A DNA stretch of 48,825 nt. Origin: a virus. The translations under genes were made by a program, and so were the position numbers. The notes beneath the pieces are model-generated. The model searched no databases and was not told where the DNA came from. It was given only the letters and a program-made list of their open reading frames with translations. The DNA lies in the IMG/VR virus record IMGVR_UViG_3300042561_001716, positions 1 to 48,825 of that record, one strand, 5' to 3'. Shown here one piece after another: positions 10,913 to 19,320 of this stretch (position 1 is its first letter; every line of letters starts with the position of its first letter).

Positions 10913-13180
10913 TTAAAATTCCATTGCGAAAACAGAAGTGTATCGAGATGTAAAAATCCCATTCCAGTTGTATTTATTCAGGTTTATTGGATTTGAGATA
11001 ACCCAACGAGAACCCCTGCCATTCACATCAACTGCGGCGATTCTGACGTAATATTTCCCTGCTGATAGGTTCTTGAACTGCGATGAAGAGCTTGATTCTG
11101 ACCGAGTGTCGCCCCAAAAACCGTCATCGCCTTTGCGAAGTTCAACGGTATAGCCTCTAATATATGGGTCACGCTCACCACCTAGAAGCGGATAATCCCA
11201 GATTGCATCTAAATCAAATAGGTCAATAGCCCGGTAGCTGAGGGTAATATTTCTTGGCACACTAACAACGGTGGGAGGGTTACGCCGTACTGGCAAAGGT
11301 GCAAGTGACCATCCATTTTCGATTTGAGAATATTTGGAGGGGTTGTACTCAACCGCCGTGATTTCGTGAAACATTTCCGAACTGCCAGAACTCGGTACAC
11401 GGTTCAGAACCCGGAATAGCTGCGGCCGTACAGTGGTTGACGCAAGAATCCAGTTACTTTCCGGTGGTGGCACTGATGATAAAGCAGATGCAAGGGTTAA
11501 CGCTGTAGTTAGTCCAGGCGAATTGGTAACGGATTTTTCCTGTACTGTCCCATCGGTAAGCATTACCGTGAGGGTGTAAGTCTCCCCTGGTAAAATCTCT
11601 ACTTCATGGTCTAAGGTGATTGTCGTGGTAGTGGCCGCCGCAATCAACCCCCCATAGCGAATATCAGCCCTCTTGGAGTCCATCACCCTGATAATGTCCC
11701 CCGGATTGGTATAAGCACCATAGGCTCTACATCGGAAAGATACGGTTTCCTGTTCTAGTCTGTCAGTGAGCAAGGCCGCATACCCAGCCCGTCGCGCTTG
11801 ACCTCTTGACACACAAGCAAACGCAGACATTTCTAGTTCCCGAACGCCATATTTAGCTATTCCACCGGGATCATCAATGGCTTCTACTGAACGACGGTAA
11901 AAGTCGTCAGGGTTTACGTAAGTTACTAAAGCCATGGTATGTCTAGTTTTCAAGCCTGTACGGGTGTATGAGAACATCCCATCATCTACGTCAGCTTGGG
12001 TAAATTGTGCTACTGGAGATCCGGGTTTGTCGGCAGCAAAGGCGATCGCCCCATTCATCCAATAACTAAAACCGCGAAACACTGATAAAAACTGTTGAAT
12101 AACCTTGTACGCTTCTTCTTTACCCTCTAGCAGTAAGTGACATTGAAACCGATGTTCATAGCCACCGTAACCAGTGGGGACGTACTCATTGCAATATTGG
12201 CTAATCTCGTACAACGCCCACTTATCAATTTGGGACTGATTGATGTATCTGCCAAGTCCATAACGGGTATTGGTGATTAGGTCATAAAGAATCCACGCCG
12301 GATCTGCTACTGCTACTGATGGAGTGTAAAATGTCCCGTTCCAAGTTCCGCTATAGGTTAATCCCCTTGTTCCTGTGGGTGTGGCGTTGCTTGGTATCTG
12401 AATTTTCCGCCCTGCTAGTCTTAGGGATATTTGGGGCGTGTCTTGAAACTGGGCTGCATCAAACCTAAATCCAAATAATGCAGAGTTGGGGTATTTGAGT
12501 TTAGTTACTGTAACTTCAGTATAAGCCCGCCATATTAAAACCCGTTGATACCTTGTAGAATCGGTATCTTGGGGCGTAAGCCGTTCTACTCTGACACTAA
12601 AGTTCGTTACTGTCCCACCGACATTATTAACTGCAAAGGCATATTCAAATTCTGTCAAGGTTGCAAAGCGTCCGCCTAAACTGCCCTCATAAGCTAGATA
12701 GAACGCCCCTGCGCCTTGTTTTAGGTAAATCCTAAAAGTTACACTTGATCCCAAAACCCCGCCGTCTGAGGGGTATTCTTGAAGTACCACACCCAGGCGG
12801 ATTCTAATAATATCTAAATTTCCGTTGGTGATGGTGCGGGTGATTGGAAAATTGCACTTAACCTCAGCGGCTACGCTGGTTTCACTCGTTACCTCATCTC
12901 CAAAACCTAACATCCTGCTTTGTGCCTGTGTACCGGGTCGCCAATCCCAGCCGAAATCCTGGAAGTTGATTGAACCATCGGCGTTTTGTACTGGAGTTTC
13001 ATCAAAGTAGACTGATTGCAGCCCCATAACTAATCCCTCAATTTCACCCTCTGACACAATCCCCAGCATTGCGGCGTTAGAGACAGAACGCCCTGATATA
13101 GCGGTTTCTGGCGGACTGGGAGGGTTTTTAGAGCGTCCGCCCCCACTACCACCAAATCCTTTAAATTGTTTTTTCGGCAT
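10913..13180 (-). CDS. gpJ-like tail tip / host specificity protein
   Basis: A 755-residue protein from the ATG at 13180. It begins with a Lys/Gly-rich tail and then the typical gpJ opening (SVSNAAMLGIVSEGEIEGLV, then VYFDETPVQNADGS). The middle has hub-like segments such as WILYDLITNTRYGLG and the FSYWMNGAIAFAADKPG block. The end is a fibronectin-III-like domain (YTVELRKGDDGFWG, KYYVRIAAVDVNGRG). This family forms the central fibre hub of siphovirus tails and contacts the receptor. It is shorter than lambda gpJ (1132 residues), with fewer C-terminal domains. Confidence 0.9.
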   Translation of the reverse strand: MPKKQFKGFGGSGGGRSKNPPSPPETAISGRSVSNAAMLGIVSEGEIEGLVMGLQSVYFDETPVQNADGSINFQDFGWDWRPGTQAQSRMLGFGDEVTSETSVAAEVKCNFPITRTITNGNLDIIRIRLGVVLQEYPSDGGVLGSSVTFRIYLKQGAGAFYLAYEGSLGGRFATLTEFEYAFAVNNVGGTVTNFSVRVERLTPQDTDSTRYQRVLIWRAYTEVTVTKLKYPNSALFGFRFDAAQFQDTPQISLRLAGRKIQIPSNATPTGTRGLTYSGTWNGTFYTPSVAVADPAWILYDLITNTRYGLGRYINQSQIDKWALYEISQYCNEYVPTGYGGYEHRFQCHLLLEGKEEAYKVIQQFLSVFRGFSYWMNGAIAFAADKPGSPVAQFTQADVDDGMFSYTRTGLKTRHTMALVTYVNPDDFYRRSVEAIDDPGGIAKYGVRELEMSAFACVSRGQARRAGYAALLTDRLEQETVSFRCRAYGAYTNPGDIIRVMDSKRADIRYGGLIAAATTTTITLDHEVEILPGETYTLTVMLTDGTVQEKSVTNSPGLTTALTLASALSSVPPPESNWILASTTVRPQLFRVLNRVPSSGSSEMFHEITAVEYNPSKYSQIENGWSLAPLPVRRNPPTVVSVPRNITLSYRAIDLFDLDAIWDYPLLGGERDPYIRGYTVELRKGDDGFWGDTRSESSSSSQFKNLSAGKYYVRIAAVDVNGRGSRWVISNPINLNKYNWNGIFTSRYTSVFAMEF

Positions 13181-13279
13181 AACCACAATTGATGTTTGTG
13201 GTTATTTTTGCCATAACGGTAAACGTTTACTGTCAATCTTGGTTGTCTACCCAGCTATGTCACTCCCATTTCAGTTAGA

Positions 13280-13750
13280 TTATATTCGTCCCTGGGATCT
13301 AAATTCTATTTCTATAAACTCAGCCGCAAGCTTGTAATTTCTCACTATGTGGCGGAATATATCACCATTTTGATCGGGAATAATAACCCCATCAGGAAAA
13401 TAAAGGGGGATTAATGCACGCTCTAATTCCCATGCAAAACCAGAAATATTAGCGCCTGAGAAATGGCGGAATTTAAAGTTATCGGGGTGTGCGCTTTTAT
13501 AAACCAAATCTTCATAGAAACTTTCTAATTGCAATAGAAATTGAGCGCGAAAAATCTTTATATGCTCACCATCAACATTCCACCAATTATCCCCAATATT
13601 AGCAAATATTCCAGCATCATAAATGCCGTATTTGCCATTAGCTAATTTGACGCATTTTTTAGGCGTGAGATTAGTTGGAGAAATTAGTATTGGTGAGTGC
13701 GCGATATTCAGATCAACAAATTTAGCTACATCAAATGTCATGGTATTCAT
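13280..13750 (-). CDS. Hypothetical protein upstream of gpJ
   Basis: A 156-residue protein whose ATG at 13750 overlaps the stop of the upstream gene (TAATG), so translation is probably coupled. It is rich in aromatic residues (NIGDNWWNVDGEH, FAWELERALIPLYFP). No known motif was recognised. It may work with the 273-residue protein encoded just upstream. Confidence 0.6.
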   Translation of the reverse strand: MNTMTFDVAKFVDLNIAHSPILISPTNLTPKKCVKLANGKYGIYDAGIFANIGDNWWNVDGEHIKIFRAQFLLQLESFYEDLVYKSAHPDNFKFRHFSGANISGFAWELERALIPLYFPDGVIIPDQNGDIFRHIVRNYKLAAEFIEIEFRSQGRI

Positions 13751-14571
13751 TAAAATGCTACTCCCATTTCAGTTAAATTCTGTTGATATTCCCGTTCTTG
13801 CTGTTCAAATTCCCTCTTGATCAACCTTCTCCAACCCCTACGGCAAATTTTGTATGATTCATCAAAAAACCACATCACAACACGCTTCACAGATTTAGCC
13901 ACCGACTCAATGTTTACCTCAATCAGCGATCGCTCAAAGCCCGCAGAATTAAACTGAATCATCCCAAAAAACAGGGAGTCAAACAGCGTCAACATCAACG
14001 CCCCTTTATGTCCTGGCAACAAATCAAAAGGGTCGGTATCTGGGAATTTCCGAATCATTCTCTCTTTCCAGAGTTGGTAAGCACATCTATATAATTGCGC
14101 CATGCCCGCTAAGTCCATGTTTTTCAGGGTGGGAGGAATAACAGTTGTACCCGATAATTTAGGGGTAAAGTCTAAAAATCCCAATCCCCAAACTTCCTGA
14201 ATTTCGCCCGTTTCTTGACTGGTGCGAGTTTTCCAGAGTCCAGCCGAGAGCAATTGTCTGACCTGTCTGCAACTATGCTCGGAATGGCAAGCACCTGGCC
14301 AGTGCTTCTTAAGATATGCCGATAAGTAAATATTGGTCATCTCGATAGATGCCTCACCATTTTGAGATGCGGCTATTATCTCCCCTGCTTTTTGGGGTAA
14401 CAGCTTGTTATTCTCCAGTAGTTCTAATCTTTCGAGTGCAGCCCAGCAGTATGCGTTGGTAACTCCCATGACCGCCAGAAGTTGTGATGTGTTTAAATCT
14501 CGGATTCGTTCAAAAATTTCTAATTCTTTTTTCAGAAACTCTTGCTTTGTGATGCGGTGTTGTGTTAGCAT
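13750..14571 (-). CDS. Hypothetical protein, first gene of the gpJ transcription unit
   Basis: A 273-residue mainly helical protein from the ATG at 14571 (GGA 6 bases upstream); TTG at 14580 is a weaker alternative. It has a Cys/His-containing segment (GACHSEHSCRQVRQLL) and a strongly basic C-terminal helix (RRGWRRLIKREFEQQEREYQ). No family was recognised. As the first minus-strand gene after the long intergenic region it may lie next to the promoter of the tail tip genes. Confidence 0.6.
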   Translation of the reverse strand: MLTQHRITKQEFLKKELEIFERIRDLNTSQLLAVMGVTNAYCWAALERLELLENNKLLPQKAGEIIAASQNGEASIEMTNIYLSAYLKKHWPGACHSEHSCRQVRQLLSAGLWKTRTSQETGEIQEVWGLGFLDFTPKLSGTTVIPPTLKNMDLAGMAQLYRCAYQLWKERMIRKFPDTDPFDLLPGHKGALMLTLFDSLFFGMIQFNSAGFERSLIEVNIESVAKSVKRVVMWFFDESYKICRRGWRRLIKREFEQQEREYQQNLTEMGVAF

Positions 14572-14892
14572 AATTTCCAATCGAATACAAATTGTTAGCC
14601 ATCCCTGCTGTCGTAACTTGGGTGGCTAATTTATTTTAACCCAAGGCTATGGGTAAATCAATAATTTTATTAATACTCTAATATCTCCACCGTAAGACCG
14701 CCCCTACACTTGGTTTTCGGTACTTCACGACTATATGCCTTTACTTCTATTGCAAACGAGAAGAATTTGAAATCAAGAGAGGAATTAAATTAAAAGAGAA
14801 AAATTAATTAATCTCTCTTATTTGATATAAGCGAAAAGCATATAGTCCTCAAGTATGCTTTTTATACAATTATGTCGCTGAAATACTTAATC

Positions 14893-14930
14893 AAAAATTT
14901 TATATTAGAAGTGCTTGACAAGTGCTTTCA
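14893..14930 (+). repeat. 38-bp promoter repeat, copy 1
   Basis: The same 38 bases, running from AAAAATTTTATATTAG to AAGTGCTTTCA, occur again at 15773-15810. Each copy holds a direct repeat of AAGTGCTT with 11-base spacing that overlaps the -35 box, a likely operator. Confidence 0.85.
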
Positions 14931-14943
14931 TTCTTGCTATAAC
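14915..14943 (+). promoter_or_regulatory. Promoter of the MoxR-like gene
   Basis: TTGACA at 14915-14920, a 17-base spacer and TATAAC at 14938-14943 match a strong sigma-70-type promoter. The direct repeat AAGTGCTT GAC AAGTGCTT overlaps the -35 box and may bind a regulator. Confidence 0.8.
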
Positions 14944-14969
14944 TAGATTATTAAAGCAGGGGGAGCAAA

Positions 14970-15773
14970 ATGAACGGATATCATTTAAGAGCGGCTGAAT
15001 CATTAGCTCTCAGAGCTATGACTCGCAAAAAAGGATTAAAAACCCTCATCCTGGAGGGAGCGCCTGGAACAGGTAAAACATATTTTTCCGAGTGCCTCGC
15101 CAAGGAGTGGCAAGCACTATATTTATATTACCTGTGCCACCATTGGACGGGCGATGAGGAAATGTTCGTTGGTGTCCACGTTGGCCGCGTTGCGGCTGGG
15201 GTGAAAAAGCCAGAAGATGCTTATGAGTATGGCGTTTTGGCAAAAGCCGCGATCATATCCCAAACAACAAAAATGGTTGTCTGTTTAGATGAATTGGACA
15301 AAGCCCCCCAGCGGGCGGAGTCATTGTTGTTGGATTTTCTGCAAAATGGACGGGTGTATATGCCTGATGGGTCTAAAATCCAAGGCAACTTGGAAAACAT
15401 GACCGTCATCGTGACAACCAACGCAGTACGCCCCTTAATGGAGGCAACAATGCGGCGTGGATTCCGCATCAAGATGGAGTTCTTACCTCCTAATGTGGAA
15501 GCTGACATTATCCGCAAAGCCACTGGTGCAAAAATGGGAGCGATTAGAGTTGTAGTGCGGATGCTCGGAGTTATCCGAGCATCCGGTGCTACTGCGCCAT
15601 CCCTGCAAGAAGGCCGCAATTTAGTTGAAGATTTGGCGGCTTGCGAAAATTCCTCTGATGTTGAAATTTTAATTCGCGGTTGGCTGGTTAAGGAGGATGA
15701 GGACTGGGATGCTCTTGTATCCGAGTTTGGAGGTCAGCCCCACAGCATTTTATGGGGTGAATTTAAGAGATAA
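14970..15773 (+). CDS. MoxR-like AAA+ ATPase
   Basis: A 267-residue AAA+ ATPase. Walker A is GAPGTGKT at about residues 30-37, Walker B is VVCLDELDKA near 103-112, and sensor 1 is VIVTTNA near 147-153; an arginine-finger segment follows (MRRGFRIKMEF). The ATP-dependent MoxR family typically remodels targets together with a VWA-domain partner, and such a partner is encoded next, 94 bases downstream with its own copy of the same promoter. GGGGGAG 5 bases upstream is a strong ribosome site. It may act as a chaperone for virion or host proteins or as part of a defence system; the target is unknown. Confidence 0.85.
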   Translation: MNGYHLRAAESLALRAMTRKKGLKTLILEGAPGTGKTYFSECLAKEWQALYLYYLCHHWTGDEEMFVGVHVGRVAAGVKKPEDAYEYGVLAKAAIISQTTKMVVCLDELDKAPQRAESLLLDFLQNGRVYMPDGSKIQGNLENMTVIVTTNAVRPLMEATMRRGFRIKMEFLPPNVEADIIRKATGAKMGAIRVVVRMLGVIRASGATAPSLQEGRNLVEDLAACENSSDVEILIRGWLVKEDEDWDALVSEFGGQPHSILWGEFKR

Positions 15774-15810
15774 AAAATTTTATATTAGAAGTGCTTGACA
15801 AGTGCTTTCA
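15773..15810 (+). repeat. 38-bp promoter repeat, copy 2
   Basis: This is identical to 14893-14930 and begins at the last base of the MoxR-like gene. The duplicated block holds the -35 box and the AAGTGCTT direct repeat; the sequences diverge after it. Confidence 0.85.
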
Positions 15811-15823
15811 CTTCTGATATAAA
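15795..15823 (+). promoter_or_regulatory. Promoter of the VWA-domain gene
   Basis: TTGACA at 15795-15800 and TATAAA at 15818-15823 are separated by 17 bases. The upstream 38 bases match the MoxR promoter, so the two genes are probably controlled by the same regulator. Confidence 0.8.
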
Positions 15824-15867
15824 TAGATTATAGAAAACAACACAAAAACTAAAAGAAGGTGATCGGG

Positions 15868-17676
15868 ATGAGAAACAATCAACGTCGTAGTCGTAGAAAC
15901 AAAAGCAGAGTTGACAATCTTCAACTCCCGATCACCGTTCGTCAAGCTCAGAAAATTGTAGTGAAAGTGAAAAAGTTAGGCTCAAGCTACAGTTTCCCAG
16001 GAGAGATTCGACAAGCATTGTCGTTAAGCTCCTGTCATGACCATGACGGAGCATTAAAAAAATTAGCAAACCTAGCATCTAAAGACCCTAACCAGGTCTT
16101 AATTGATGCGAATGGAAAACCCCCTCAATCTGCCGAGAACAGAGAAGAAGGGGAATCCAGGGAAAAAGGGACTGATGAAGTTGCCCCCACTTCTGACAGT
16201 CCCTCCGAGGGATCGGAAATGCACGGGGGAGACGGTAATAGCGGTGAGTGTGATTCTCCCGCAGAAACATCTAGTCCCGAAGAACGGGAAGGAGATCAAG
16301 GTTCTCAAGGAAATCAAGCCCAGTTGCAAGCTGAAACCGCCGACGGTGGCAGCCAAGGGCAAGGAATCGGAGACTCCACGGATTCTCAGGAGACTGAGAA
16401 TAGCGATCGCAATGCGCCCCAATCCAACGGTTCTGAGACGGGTTCATCCACGTCAGAAAGTTGTGAGTCAGGCGAAAAGTCCCAATCTCCGACTGATCAA
16501 AAAGCAGAATCCCCTGAATCGCCAAATTCAGGGTCAGGTGAAGATACGGCAACATCACCTGTGCGCGAAATTGATCAGAAAAACTGTGCGGCTCAAGCTG
16601 ATTCTGATCTCCGTGACGATCAGGTAAATCAAGGGTCAGAATCTCCAAAAAAAGATGCTCAACCCTCTGTGAGCGCGAAAGCTAAAGATAACGTCAATAG
16701 CGATCGCCAAGCAGAGAAACCTGGGGATGATGAAGCTGAGGGACGAACTCAGAAATCTCACGCGGACAATTCGGAAAACTCATTGGGTGAGAATGAGTCG
16801 GATTGTGTCAGTCCTAATGATGACACTAACGCAGAGGCTCAAGCGTCTGATGACGTTCCCACGCATCAGAAAAAGTGGGGAAAATCTTTCAGCAAAGAGG
16901 AAAGAGGGGAAGGTAAATTATCCCTCTCTAACTCTAGTAATAACGGTGGTGCTACAGCCTCCTTGAAAGTTGCTGGCGTATCACCAAAGTTATTAAAGCT
17001 GTGTCGCCAACGCCTAGCAGCATTAGTTGGCGATAGCAGCCAACAGCACAGTCCACGCAGAGACTATACCGAGTTCTGCGTTCGACTAAAAACCTATCGT
17101 AATCCTCAACCCGCCAGGAAAGAGGAAGAAGGTAGACCTGTGATTTTACTCCTGGCAGACGTTTCCGGCTCTTGTGCATCTTTTTCTAACGAATCAGTCA
17201 AAGTTGCCAAAGCAGCCAGTAAGTTAGGCGTTCAAGGTACGGACATCCTAGTGGTGTCTCACTACAACGGAACGCCTCACGAAATGGAAATCAATGGCAA
17301 AGTTGTAGATGTGCGCTCGATTCAACCTAAAGCAGTTAAAAAGACTGCTGACAACGGCTGTAATTGGGGCAATTCTTCAGGGTGGTATGAAACCCTGATG
17401 CAACGCTACAGCATCACTGTTTGCATTGCATTAGGTGACTGGGATGGCAGTTTGGAATATGCCTATATTGCCCAGCATCCACAATGCGAGAAATTTATTT
17501 GGCTAGACAATGCCCATTGCTCTAGTCGTGGCACAGTTCAAGATCGGACTAAGTTTGCTCTTGACCATTACGCCCAAAATTTTACAGGGATAAAAATTCC
17601 TGTCCTGCGTCAAAAACTTATCTACAGAGATGGGTGTAAAGATGCGATTGCTTTTATCAACAATATCAAAGCTTAG
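15868..17676 (+). CDS. VWA-domain protein with a long acidic low-complexity linker
   Basis: A 602-residue protein from the ATG at 15868 (AAGG upstream; a GTG at 15859 is the alternative). Residues 1-85 are basic and globular. Residues about 90-360 are Ser/Glu/Asp/Gln/Asn/Gly-rich and probably disordered. Residues about 425-600 form a von Willebrand A domain with a MIDAS motif (LLADVSGSCASFS) and a later GDWDGS acidic loop. VWA partners of MoxR ATPases bind metal and the client protein. The pairing with the upstream ATPase is seen in the sequence; the client and the biological role are unknown. The high density of GAA/GAG and AGC-type codons in the linker differs from the flanks. Confidence 0.8.
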   Translation: MRNNQRRSRRNKSRVDNLQLPITVRQAQKIVVKVKKLGSSYSFPGEIRQALSLSSCHDHDGALKKLANLASKDPNQVLIDANGKPPQSAENREEGESREKGTDEVAPTSDSPSEGSEMHGGDGNSGECDSPAETSSPEEREGDQGSQGNQAQLQAETADGGSQGQGIGDSTDSQETENSDRNAPQSNGSETGSSTSESCESGEKSQSPTDQKAESPESPNSGSGEDTATSPVREIDQKNCAAQADSDLRDDQVNQGSESPKKDAQPSVSAKAKDNVNSDRQAEKPGDDEAEGRTQKSHADNSENSLGENESDCVSPNDDTNAEAQASDDVPTHQKKWGKSFSKEERGEGKLSLSNSSNNGGATASLKVAGVSPKLLKLCRQRLAALVGDSSQQHSPRRDYTEFCVRLKTYRNPQPARKEEEGRPVILLLADVSGSCASFSNESVKVAKAASKLGVQGTDILVVSHYNGTPHEMEINGKVVDVRSIQPKAVKKTADNGCNWGNSSGWYETLMQRYSITVCIALGDWDGSLEYAYIAQHPQCEKFIWLDNAHCSSRGTVQDRTKFALDHYAQNFTGIKIPVLRQKLIYRDGCKDAIAFINNIKA

Positions 17677-17726
17677 GAAAAAAGCTGAACAGACAAAATT
17701 TTTAAAGAATTTGGGAATTAAGAATA

Positions 17727-17879
17727 ATGTCAGACAAATATATTGAGATTTAGGGCGAGAAAGTTCAGGTTCTCGAAGTAGTTCAAGAAGATGCCAAAAA
17801 CGGAGCATCCCTTGTAACTACTGAGGATCAGACTCAGTGGGTGGACACAAACGCGATTCAGGAAGAATGCCCCTCGTAA
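17727..17879 (+). pseudogene. Small gene interrupted by an in-frame amber codon
   Basis: From the ATG at 17727 the frame reads MSDKYIEI, then TAG at 17751-17753, and then continues open for 41 codons (GEKVQVLEVVQEDAKNGASL) to TAA at 17877. The downstream part looks like normal protein. TAG serves as a normal stop elsewhere in the window (for example 17674-17676), so this is most likely an inactivating mutation or a sequencing error rather than recoding. The next gene overlaps its end by 13 bases. Confidence 0.5.
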
Positions 17880-18061
17880 TTTTAAGGGTCAAGGATGGCT
17901 TCAATCTCAATAATCATCTTTACCTGACCAAAAAAGCTGGTATTGGAAATTATCTTTTGATATGCCACATACCACAGCTACAAATCCAAGGCTTGAAATT
18001 AGATCCTTGCGTTGAGTCGCTAAGAGTCGAAAAATGGCTAAAAACTTATTTTAAGGACTGA
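17867..18061 (+). CDS. Small hypothetical protein
   Basis: A 64-residue protein from the ATG at 17867 with AGGAAG just upstream. It begins MPLVILRVKDGFNLNNHL and has two Cys residues. It overlaps the interrupted small gene before it and lies 5 bases before the next gene. It belongs to the MoxR/VWA island; no family was recognised. Confidence 0.5.
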   Translation: MPLVILRVKDGFNLNNHLYLTKKAGIGNYLLICHIPQLQIQGLKLDPCVESLRVEKWLKTYFKD

Positions 18062-18066
18062 AAGCA

Positions 18067-18477
18067 ATGAATGATGAATTTCTAAAAAAAGCAATGGACT
18101 GGGCTTGTGCCAATAAGCCAGACGCAAGCATGAATCACAAAGCTGCTTTTGCTAATTCTGTCGCCTATTTCTGCTCCGGGTGGAGTGGCGGCTATGGCGG
18201 TCCATCTTTAAGGGAGCATTTTTGTTCTTGGGCATTAGCCGGAGATGAGGGACTGAATGACACAGCAAGCCTCAACGGACTGGCTATAACAATTCAGTTT
18301 CCCGACGGCAGACTACCTCGCGCTGGAGAATGGCAATTTGAGGAGGCGGTTAAATTTTGCGAACCTCTCTGCTTTGACCCCGCGGAGAAATACTTGAAAA
18401 CTTTGCTTCAAATTTCAGAAAAGGCGCACTGTTTTGACGACGACCCCGCAGATTTAGAGGTATTGCGGGGAAAGTAG
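18067..18477 (+). CDS. Hypothetical protein of the MoxR/VWA island
   Basis: A 136-residue soluble protein that starts 5 bases after the previous gene, with GGACTGAA upstream. It is rich in Cys, Gly and aromatic residues (FCSGWSGGYGGPSLREHFCS). The C-terminus is acidic. No domain was recognised. The overlap with the next small frame suggests coupled translation. Confidence 0.6.
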   Translation: MNDEFLKKAMDWACANKPDASMNHKAAFANSVAYFCSGWSGGYGGPSLREHFCSWALAGDEGLNDTASLNGLAITIQFPDGRLPRAGEWQFEEAVKFCEPLCFDPAEKYLKTLLQISEKAHCFDDDPADLEVLRGK

Positions 18478-18719
18478 TCAAACTTCCCAATGGGGGATAT
18501 TGCCTAAGCGGTGGCAGAAAGCTATCTCCTAAATTAATTGAAAATGTGCTGTCAGTGGCACGTATTCAAGAGGGAGAGAATATTTGCCAAGGCTTAAAAA
18601 ATCCCTACACAGTTTGTTGCAAATCTTTGTCTCCGCAAAATAGGACAGGATATTGCAAAAACCACCGAAGTCAAAACCCAGAGCAACAAAAGAGGGTGAA
18701 AAAAGCAAGAAGCAAATAG
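18462..18719 (+). CDS. Small basic Cys-containing protein without a standard start
   Basis: An open frame ending at 18719 encodes about 85 residues that look real (KVVKLPNGGYCLSGGRKLSP, then C-rich and Lys/Arg-rich segments). It contains no ATG, GTG or TTG until the GTG of codon 29, and a TGA closes the frame near 18433. It may use ATT at 18462 preceded by AGAGG, or it may be reached by a frameshift from the overlapping 136-residue gene. The six Cys residues suggest metal binding. It is the last gene before the island terminator. Confidence 0.4.
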   Translation: MAGKVVKLPNGGYCLSGGRKLSPKLIENVLSVARIQEGENICQGLKNPYTVCCKSLSPQNRTGYCKNHRSQNPEQQKRVKKARSK

Positions 18720-18721
18720 TT

Positions 18722-18748
18722 AAACCCGCCAGAAATGGTGGGTTTTTT
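18722..18748. terminator. Bidirectional terminator between the island and gpI
   Basis: The inverted repeat AACCCGCC/GGTGGGTT with a 6-base loop is followed by T6 on the plus strand and by a T-containing tract on the minus strand. It separates the plus-strand island from the convergent gpI gene. Confidence 0.85.
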
Positions 18749-18753
18749 ATTAC

Positions 18754-19320
18754 CTAACTTGGCTGGTACGAAGCCGTAATTTTGGCACTGATTATATACA
18801 TCCCTGCCAATGCCACGCCGTAAATTATTGGTACTCTACCACCTTCTTTAACAGTTGTTGACGTGCCACCAAATACCAATGATTTTTTATCTTCCTTAGC
18901 ATCGGGTGATTCTTGCCGTCCAAACAGGGAAGAAATACCACTCAGTAGCAAAGCACCTCCTGTTAATGCCAACGTGGTAGAACTTAATCCCAAAAACCCC
19001 ACACCCGCTAGTCCTAACCCTAGCAATGCCGCACCTGCAATAATCCGCCCAACTGTACCAGCACCAGCAATCACTGGCGTGATACGGATTGACTGGACTT
19101 TCTTGGAGATTGGGCATTTTAGATGCTCCTCGCCAATTTCCTGATACCCTACCTGGATCTGATAGGATACGCCACGATTGGCAGCTTCAAATAGGTAGTT
19201 AGCAAAATCTTTGAAGTTAGCCCGTAGTGCCGCCACAGCTTCGGCAACACTAGAAACATCAACGGTAATTTGCGGGGTGAAATAGTCCGCAAGTTCACCT
19301 TGTAAGTGAATAGTAATCAT
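18754..19320 (-). CDS. gpI-like tail tip assembly protein
   Basis: A 188-residue protein of the lambda gpI family. The N-terminal ubiquitin-like segment (IHLQGELADYF, VAEAVAALRANF) is followed by the diagnostic VQSIRITPVIAGAG motif. A glycine-rich hydrophobic stretch (AGAALLGLGLAGVGFLG) comes next, and the end is PIIYGVALAGMYIIS. gpI works in assembly of the tail tip and is normally encoded between gpK and gpJ. Here it is separated from gpJ by the MoxR/VWA island, and its start lies only 6 bases from the divergent gpM start. Confidence 0.85.
   Translation of the reverse strand: MITIHLQGELADYFTPQITVDVSSVAEAVAALRANFKDFANYLFEAANRGVSYQIQVGYQEIGEEHLKCPISKKVQSIRITPVIAGAGTVGRIIAGAALLGLGLAGVGFLGLSSTTLALTGGALLLSGISSLFGRQESPDAKEDKKSLVFGGTSTTVKEGGRVPIIYGVALAGMYIISAKITASYQPS

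Follow-up and report, generated by a model that had tools for sequence, protein, structure and literature searches.

A MoxR ATPase and VWA protein gene pair as exchangeable cargo between tail genes of an uncultivated phage

Gene content of the insert

The IMG/VR contig IMGVR_UViG_3300042561_001716 (48,825 bases, analysed at its full length and termed the window below) is from an uncultivated phage, a relative of a cyanobacterial phage, and possesses genes for tape measure, minor tail, portal-like, terminase, single-stranded DNA-binding and sigma-factor-like proteins. Between its tail genes gpJ and gpI lies a gene for a MoxR-type AAA+ ATPase, followed by a gene for a VWA protein with a metal ion-dependent adhesion site (MIDAS) and by several small genes, one of which encodes a 136-amino-acid (aa) protein, here called o136 (Table 1). 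MoxR, VWA and small genes are all located on the + strand, gpJ and gpI both on the - strand. A sequence-only reading of this DNA had described four small genes, one of them interrupted, and a block with its own promoters and terminator in opposite direction to the tail genes. All of this holds: three small genes are intact (65, 136 and 57 aa) besides one remnant, a 38-bp repeat is present in two copies, and the terminator forms a ten-pair stem. The location between gpI and gpJ likewise stands, but not the extent of 14893-18748, as the segment missing from "empty" relatives is larger (13187-18753) and includes the two - strand genes of 156 and 276 aa. Base composition does not set the cassette genes (47-48% GC) apart from the flanking tail genes (46-47%; contig 42%) and gives no sign of foreign origin.

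Table 1. Features of the gpI-gpJ interval and its flanks (positions in the window).
Feature	Position	Strand	Remarks
gpJ, central tail fibre / host-specificity protein	10913..13186	-	left flank of hotspot; phrog_31 central tail fiber J, E=6.3e-203
156-aa gene	13280..13750	-	variable gpI-gpJ interval; 94% identical homologues in same interval of L011, L015, L017, L021
276-aa gene (phrog_34986)	13750..14580	-	variable interval; phrog_34986 E=1.9e-22; 89% identical in L004-L006
Promoter repeat, copy 1	14893..14930	+	TTGACA 14915-14920, 17 bp, TATAAC 14938-14943; tandem AAGTGCTT boxes 11 bp apart
MoxR-type AAA+ ATPase, 267 aa	14970..15773	+	Pfam AAA_5 above cut-off; clade and H-x-W motif
Promoter repeat, copy 2	15773..15810	+	TTGACA 15795-15800, 17 bp, TATAAA 15818-15823; palindrome AAGTG-N4-CACTT
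VWA/MIDAS partner protein	15868..17676	+	602 aa from ATG 15868 (better start); 605 aa from GTG 15859
Acidic low-complexity linker inside VWA protein	16144..16938	+	265 residues; net charge -38; 52% S/T/Q/N/G/P
Linker short motif HGGDGNSGE	16222..16248	+	9-10 identical residues common to window and six divergent VWA proteins
MIDAS motif DVSGS	17158..17172	+	further invariant Asp at 17437-17439
Remnant of small gene, early stop codon	17727..17863	+	137 bp, 85% identity to CL131; intact homologue CL131 gp129
65-aa gene	17867..18061	+	kept in L121/L122 directly upstream of 136-aa gene; 802-bp DNA match at 77%
o136, 136-aa protein	18067..18477	+	motifs GGPSxREH and FDDDPxDL; third gene after AAA+/VWA pair in pGMOR1, L087, L126
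57-aa cysteine-containing small protein	18546..18719	+	89-98% identical in CL131, L004, L011, L015; DUF5763 under cut-off
Intrinsic terminator	18722..18745	+	10-pair stem, then T-rich tail
gpI-like tail assembly protein	18754..19320	-	right flank of hotspot; phrog_32 E=2.1e-37

The gpI-gpJ interval in relatives

A scan with gpJ yielded 20 relatives. MoxR-VWA is present in the gpI-gpJ interval of none of these 20, i.e. the genes are not a conserved core of all relatives. Five sites are empty, with gpI and gpJ separated by 18-240 bp (L008, L009, L018, L019 and L022), and others hold different cargo. The interval spans 1.4 kb in L011, L015, L017 and L021, with genes of 156 and 67 aa, and 2.3 kb in L005 and L006, where the 276-aa gene is found along with others. 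In L004 it spans 4.2 kb and contains a PcfJ-like gene together with o136 and the genes of 57 and 276 aa. The comparison of intervals found no 156-aa gene in L004, L005 and the empty sites. With empty and differently loaded sites among the relatives, the interval is a hotspot and MoxR-VWA one of several cargoes.

Further variants were seen at this boundary. Just upstream of gpJ, L012-L014 contain - strand genes whose products look by eye like a DNA methyltransferase and an ASCH-like protein; these seem to be a further kind of cargo in the same spot. In L023 (4392-5221) a truncated 276-aa gene and the 156-aa gene lie directly before gpJ, and regulator-like genes replace gpI there.

Shared promoter and cassette exchange

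Each of the two large genes, MoxR and VWA, is preceded by one copy of the 38-bp direct repeat, and copy 2 starts at the MoxR stop codon. The 24-bp core of the repeat occurs twice in the window, against zero occurrences expected by shuffling, and also in three IMG/VR stretches; the repeat is common to CL131, L004, L128 and L129. A consensus promoter scan of the window missed both repeat promoters because it accepts only T as the last base of the -10 box. Both the tandem AAGTGCTT boxes and the copy 2 palindrome look operator-like. The repeated promoters could be recognised by a sigma-factor-like protein that the phage encodes (36101-37219; phrog_351, E=1.1e-34).

DNA of L004 matches the window in two blocks, one at 14615-14958 that runs through the promoter and one from 18087 to 18759, the end of the compared stretch; between the matching blocks a PcfJ-like gene occupies the place of MoxR and VWA. 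CL131, an isolate phage of Aphanizomenon, possesses the same promoter ahead of the PcfJ-like gp131, followed by gp129, o136 and the 57-aa gene. The CL131 block has other neighbours than that of the window, and both CL131 and L128 carry the shared promoter, again preceding PcfJ-like genes as in L004, in other genome contexts. With the PcfJ model, the L121 homologue reaches 30.1 bits (cut-off 25), and CL131 gp131 remains under the cut-off with 17.7 bits. A literature search on PcfJ in phages turned up only unrelated papers. Because L004 combines the same promoter and the same small genes with a PcfJ-like gene, the MoxR-VWA pair is a swappable cassette and not part of the core.

The MoxR ATPase

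The ATPase matches Pfam AAA_5 with E=2e-15 (57.5 bits, cut-off 22), which bears out its earlier recognition as MoxR-like. Catalytic motifs are present (Walker A GAPGTGKT, Walker B CLDELD, sensor 1 TTN, RR finger) and align with those of 16 clade members and of chromosomal MoxR. In an IQ-TREE phylogeny of 69 sequences, including 45 chromosomal MoxR and with long branches flagged by the program, the window MoxR belongs to a 16-member clade (support 100/93) composed of viral contigs and two plasmids only and separate from the 45 chromosomal MoxR. H57 and W59, forming an H-x-W motif, are found in 16/16 clade members, and the residue at W59 is Trp in 0/45 of the chromosomal MoxR sampled. A "sensor-2 SLQE" pattern was dropped as a clade signature since chromosomal MoxR show the same Glu in a proper alignment. 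An NCBIfam MadB hit (36 of 475 bits) is far under the cut-off and was set aside, and a literature search on it yielded nothing of use.

None of the isolate phages in 50,697 records matches the window MoxR (tblastn at 1e-5); two diverged MoxR relatives used as queries match isolate phages over half their length at most, in proteins annotated as ClpA. Plasmid matches are pGMOR1 of Gloeobacter morelensis (65% identity) and pTHEAM01 of Thermovibrio ammonificans (35%). IMG/VR searches with the window MoxR or VWA alone returned no relatives; an alignment including the two plasmid copies then found further ones. Absence of the clade from chromosomes holds for the sampled set, which is not proven complete: a GTDB scan missed the known Thermovibrio plasmid copy, and a search of 386 genomes of the phylum reached from a Sericytochromatia metagenome-assembled genome was made with no positive control.

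The VWA partner and its linker

The VWA protein consists of an N-terminal segment, an acidic linker and a C-terminal MIDAS domain. A VWA gene of 450-630 aa directly follows MoxR in those clade members whose contig has enough downstream DNA, i.e. the pairing is constant. Curated Pfam VWA profiles do not reach their cut-offs for the window protein (VWA_CoxE 13.9 versus 26.4 bits), and the VWA proteins of L087, L088 and L093 obtain 15.4-16.6 bits. Beyond the nearest ones the relatives are approximately 20% identical, yet D434, S436, S438 and D527 show no variation across 13-14 divergent relatives. Many of these proteins begin with a T-L-R-D-x-R-R-like segment. In the alignment of 13 VWA proteins no conserved MIDAS threonine was found, and the metal site may therefore be atypical. 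An AlphaFold2 model of the C-terminal 258 residues (predicted local distance difference test score 70.9, predicted template modelling score 0.72) alternates strands and helices, with DVSGS placed after a strand. Its best VWA-type structural matches are the MIDAS domains of Rea1/Mdn1 (Z 7.7-8.2, root-mean-square deviation 4.3-5.2, approximately 160 residues), at scores tied with those of unrelated Rossmann-like folds.

The linker had been put at 270 residues and measures 265. Its short motif is the exception in an otherwise unalignable region: six proteins possess exact HGGDGNSGE or HGGDGNSGEC, and composition-preserving shuffles reach no more than 7 residues. A DNA pattern scan of IMG/VR for the motif gave 9 matches, 7 of which fall within VWA genes of this kind; one of them revealed a further pair, in L136, the seventh exact carrier besides the window. 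The matches in L132 and L133 are outside any MoxR-VWA pair, look like chance and were set aside.

o136 and the plasmid pGMOR1

Homologues of o136 are few. They directly follow the VWA gene in pGMOR1 (41% identity) and in L087, and L126 has one after a divergent AAA+/VWA_2 pair; the co-occurrence of small genes with MoxR/VWA pairs, a comparison proposed earlier, is thus found for o136 in three elements. In CL131, L121 and L004 the homologues are located beside PcfJ-like genes, and the 216-kb contig L125 has o136 duplicated. The 386-genome sample contains o136 in 3 genomes, with no MoxR neighbour seen in 3.4 kb. A pair of the CL131 gp147 type, sought in other o136 carriers with no positive control, was not found. 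Invariant residues of o136 include R49, E50 and the FDD..D of FDDDPxDL. The protein has no Pfam match, its structural model finds no good match among solved structures (best Z 3.2), and the only good viral match of the model is an 84% identical 136-aa protein.

Three large genomes (L140, L141 and L142) possess homologues of approximately 160 aa with a longer insert, each adjoining the same 83-aa gene and with no MoxR in view. In L125 (4851-6396) one homologue is apparently split by a second o136 copy and an open reading frame (ORF) that resembles, by eye, a homing endonuclease.

The Gloeobacter plasmid pGMOR1 (NZ_CP063846.1, L024) shows the gene order MoxR-VWA-o136, with a cas3 and a DNA methyltransferase gene in the vicinity, and carries type IV secretion genes and the replication gene CyRepA1. 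Several of its genes are of the type IV secretion / coupling-protein kind, although MOB-suite classifies it as non-mobilizable. Approximately 6 kb upstream of its MoxR, a stretch matches the 57-aa protein over 28 residues.

Proposed function and alternatives

Family membership supports the earlier proposal that the two proteins are a protein-remodelling pair. We consider it somewhat more probable than not that they constitute a remodelling machine of the NorQD/Rea1 kind, carried as a swappable accessory cassette. NorQ/NorD is a MoxR AAA+ protein with a VWA partner in nitric oxide reductase maturation, in which the VWA domain puts a finger into the ATPase pore and the MIDAS site is turned towards the target; a second hold comes from the N-terminal domain, and ATP-driven rotation stretches the linker (PMC9976466, PMC13036017). 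In Mdn1 the unstructured linker is an entropic spring between ring and MIDAS (PMC8837202). By analogy with these characterised pairs, the 267-aa ATPase would form a ring onto which the VWA domain docks, the MIDAS metal site would grip an acidic residue of the target, and the N-terminal segment with the long acidic linker would serve as second attachment and tether; ATP hydrolysis may then pull or twist the target. As targets of MIDAS proteins supply an acidic ligand (PMC9976466), FDDDPxDL is a reasonable ligand candidate, and o136 is the candidate third component, at present the best candidate ligand or adaptor of the MIDAS site.

A plasmid carries the trio and related phages do without the pair at this site, which favours an accessory function and a target in the cell over one in the virion. 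The cassette thus probably has its role inside the infected cell and not in virion assembly, acting on a target that may be host machinery, host defence or a competing element; the evidence does not separate anti-defence, exclusion and host takeover. Several observations weigh against the remodelling machine as drawn here. The sequence predicts no substrate, no MIDAS threonine was identified in the alignment and the Rea1/Mdn1 match does not stand out from those to unrelated folds. o136 occurs with no adjacent AAA+/VWA pair in CL131, L121, L004, L125 and three large genomes. MoxR and VWA genes mostly overlap in relatives, unlike in the window with its one promoter per gene, so that balanced expression of the two proteins is assumed. 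The plasmid argument draws on a search with a single terminase family.

A role in virion or tail maturation, in which the pair assembles or remodels tail-tip proteins, had been suggested earlier and agrees with the position between gpI and gpJ. It is kept open by ATV, whose MoxR p618 is found in the virion, interacts with the VWA protein p892 and has an assigned role in tail development (PMC4124505). The opposite strand and own promoters of MoxR-VWA argue against it, as do the near relatives with 79-93% identical gpJ and no pair in the interval, the pairs adjoining recombination or helicase genes in several other contigs, and pGMOR1, where the trio resides on a plasmid with no TerL match (one TerL family searched). 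We thus consider tail maturation doubtful. An anti-phage or superinfection-exclusion system, built like a small conflict system of the MoxR-vWA type in which o136 is the third component, is a narrower form of the remodelling reading and, though unlikely as such, deserves more weight than tail maturation. MoxR-vWA pairs form the core of described conflict systems (PMC7159879), the carriers are phages and plasmids, the site is a cargo hotspot, o136 homologues occur in large genomes of the sampled phylum, and the pGMOR1 copy has cas3 and methyltransferase genes nearby. Direct support for the anti-phage role suggested earlier was nevertheless not obtained: no effector domain, VMAP, iSTAND, FtsH or propeller partner is recognised among the island proteins (Pfam, NCBIfam), and PADLOC-DB 2.0.0 models give weak, generic ATPase matches at the P-loop level only (best E=0.001, IetA residues 24-48).

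If the genes were passengers at a recombination hotspot, neutral or in decay, this would explain the interrupted small gene and the mosaic junctions that comparison with CL131 and L004 places near 17863 and 18087. This reading is improbable in view of full-length MoxR and VWA ORFs with intact catalytic residues, the retained promoters and a pairing conserved across divergent elements. A chelatase-like or metabolic pair of the CobS/CobT or ChlI/ChlD type, acting in cofactor synthesis, is the least supported reading and very improbable. MoxR does match phrog_249 "porphyrin biosynthesis" (E=1.5e-6), and CobT and ChlD likewise join a VWA domain to an acidic linker. However, generic AAA models match better, no CobT or Mg_chelatase model exceeds its cut-off, and a catalytic subunit of CobN/ChlH size was not recognised in the window ORF list, of which not every ORF was scanned.

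Beyond the remodelling machine itself, we tentatively put forward a bolder version, somewhat less likely than the conflict system above: MoxR-VWA-o136 might be a system for conflict or host takeover that has not been described so far and occurs mostly on mobile elements, of cyanobacteria as well as other bacteria. The small o136 would present its FDDDPxDL motif to the VWA metal site, and phages would exchange the system with the PcfJ-like gene behind the same promoter because both would serve the same purpose.

Comparison with known systems

MoxR/VWA pairs of phages have been known since at least 2007 (PMC2147016; also PMC2784036, PMC7911831); a description of the present MoxR branch, linker motif and o136 companion was not found in the literature examined. 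This literature holds one functional assignment for a virus MoxR/VWA pair, from an archaeal virus. The present branch is separate and tied to mobile elements, with a diagnostic H-x-W, a short motif conserved in the linker and a candidate third protein, which together offer concrete residues for mutation and a defined cassette. At the same time, the tail-module boundary of these phages emerges as a hotspot holding exchangeable cargo under a common promoter.

Adjacent or nearby AAA+/VWA genes occur in the phages N4 (gp24/gp25, PMC2784036), 0305phi8-36 (orf66/orf63, PMC2147016), Hardycor1 (HrrHc1_240/245, PMC7911831) and CL131 (gp147/gp146). The window MoxR is 23% identical to CL131 gp147 (local E=4e-4), which forms a very long outlying branch in the tree. 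The CL131 pair (MG209611.1 108415-111189; L002:1-2012) differs from that of the window and is next to a gene for DNA polymerase III beta; neither MoxR nor VWA is mentioned in the main text of the CL131 genome paper. ATV p618/p892 and SMV1 ORF588 (PMC4124505) resemble the cassette as a virus-encoded MoxR ATPase with VWA partner. ATV p618 differs in being RavA-like, 618 aa long and found in virions, a distinction drawn from its published description.

MoxR-vWA ternary conflict systems (VMAP, iSTAND, FtsH, bpX; PMC7159879) share the arrangement of MoxR, VWA and a third gene. In the window, however, this third gene encodes a 136-aa protein without Pfam match, and effector or sensor modules are not recognised; the bpMoxR model of the propeller system matches the window MoxR under its cut-off (E=0.0027, 17.2 bits, cut-off 27). 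Rea1/Mdn1 (Midasin; 6qta, 6qtb, 8ql1) likewise tethers its MIDAS domain via a long unstructured linker, but is one giant polypeptide with six AAA domains that acts in eukaryotic ribosome assembly. With NorQ/NorD the cassette has in common a single-module MoxR and a VWA protein built of N-terminal part, disordered linker and C-terminal MIDAS domain. It differs from NorQ/NorD in that no nitric oxide reductase is recognised in the window and its VWA protein stays under all Pfam VWA cut-offs, and it adds a conserved linker motif and the o136 neighbour.

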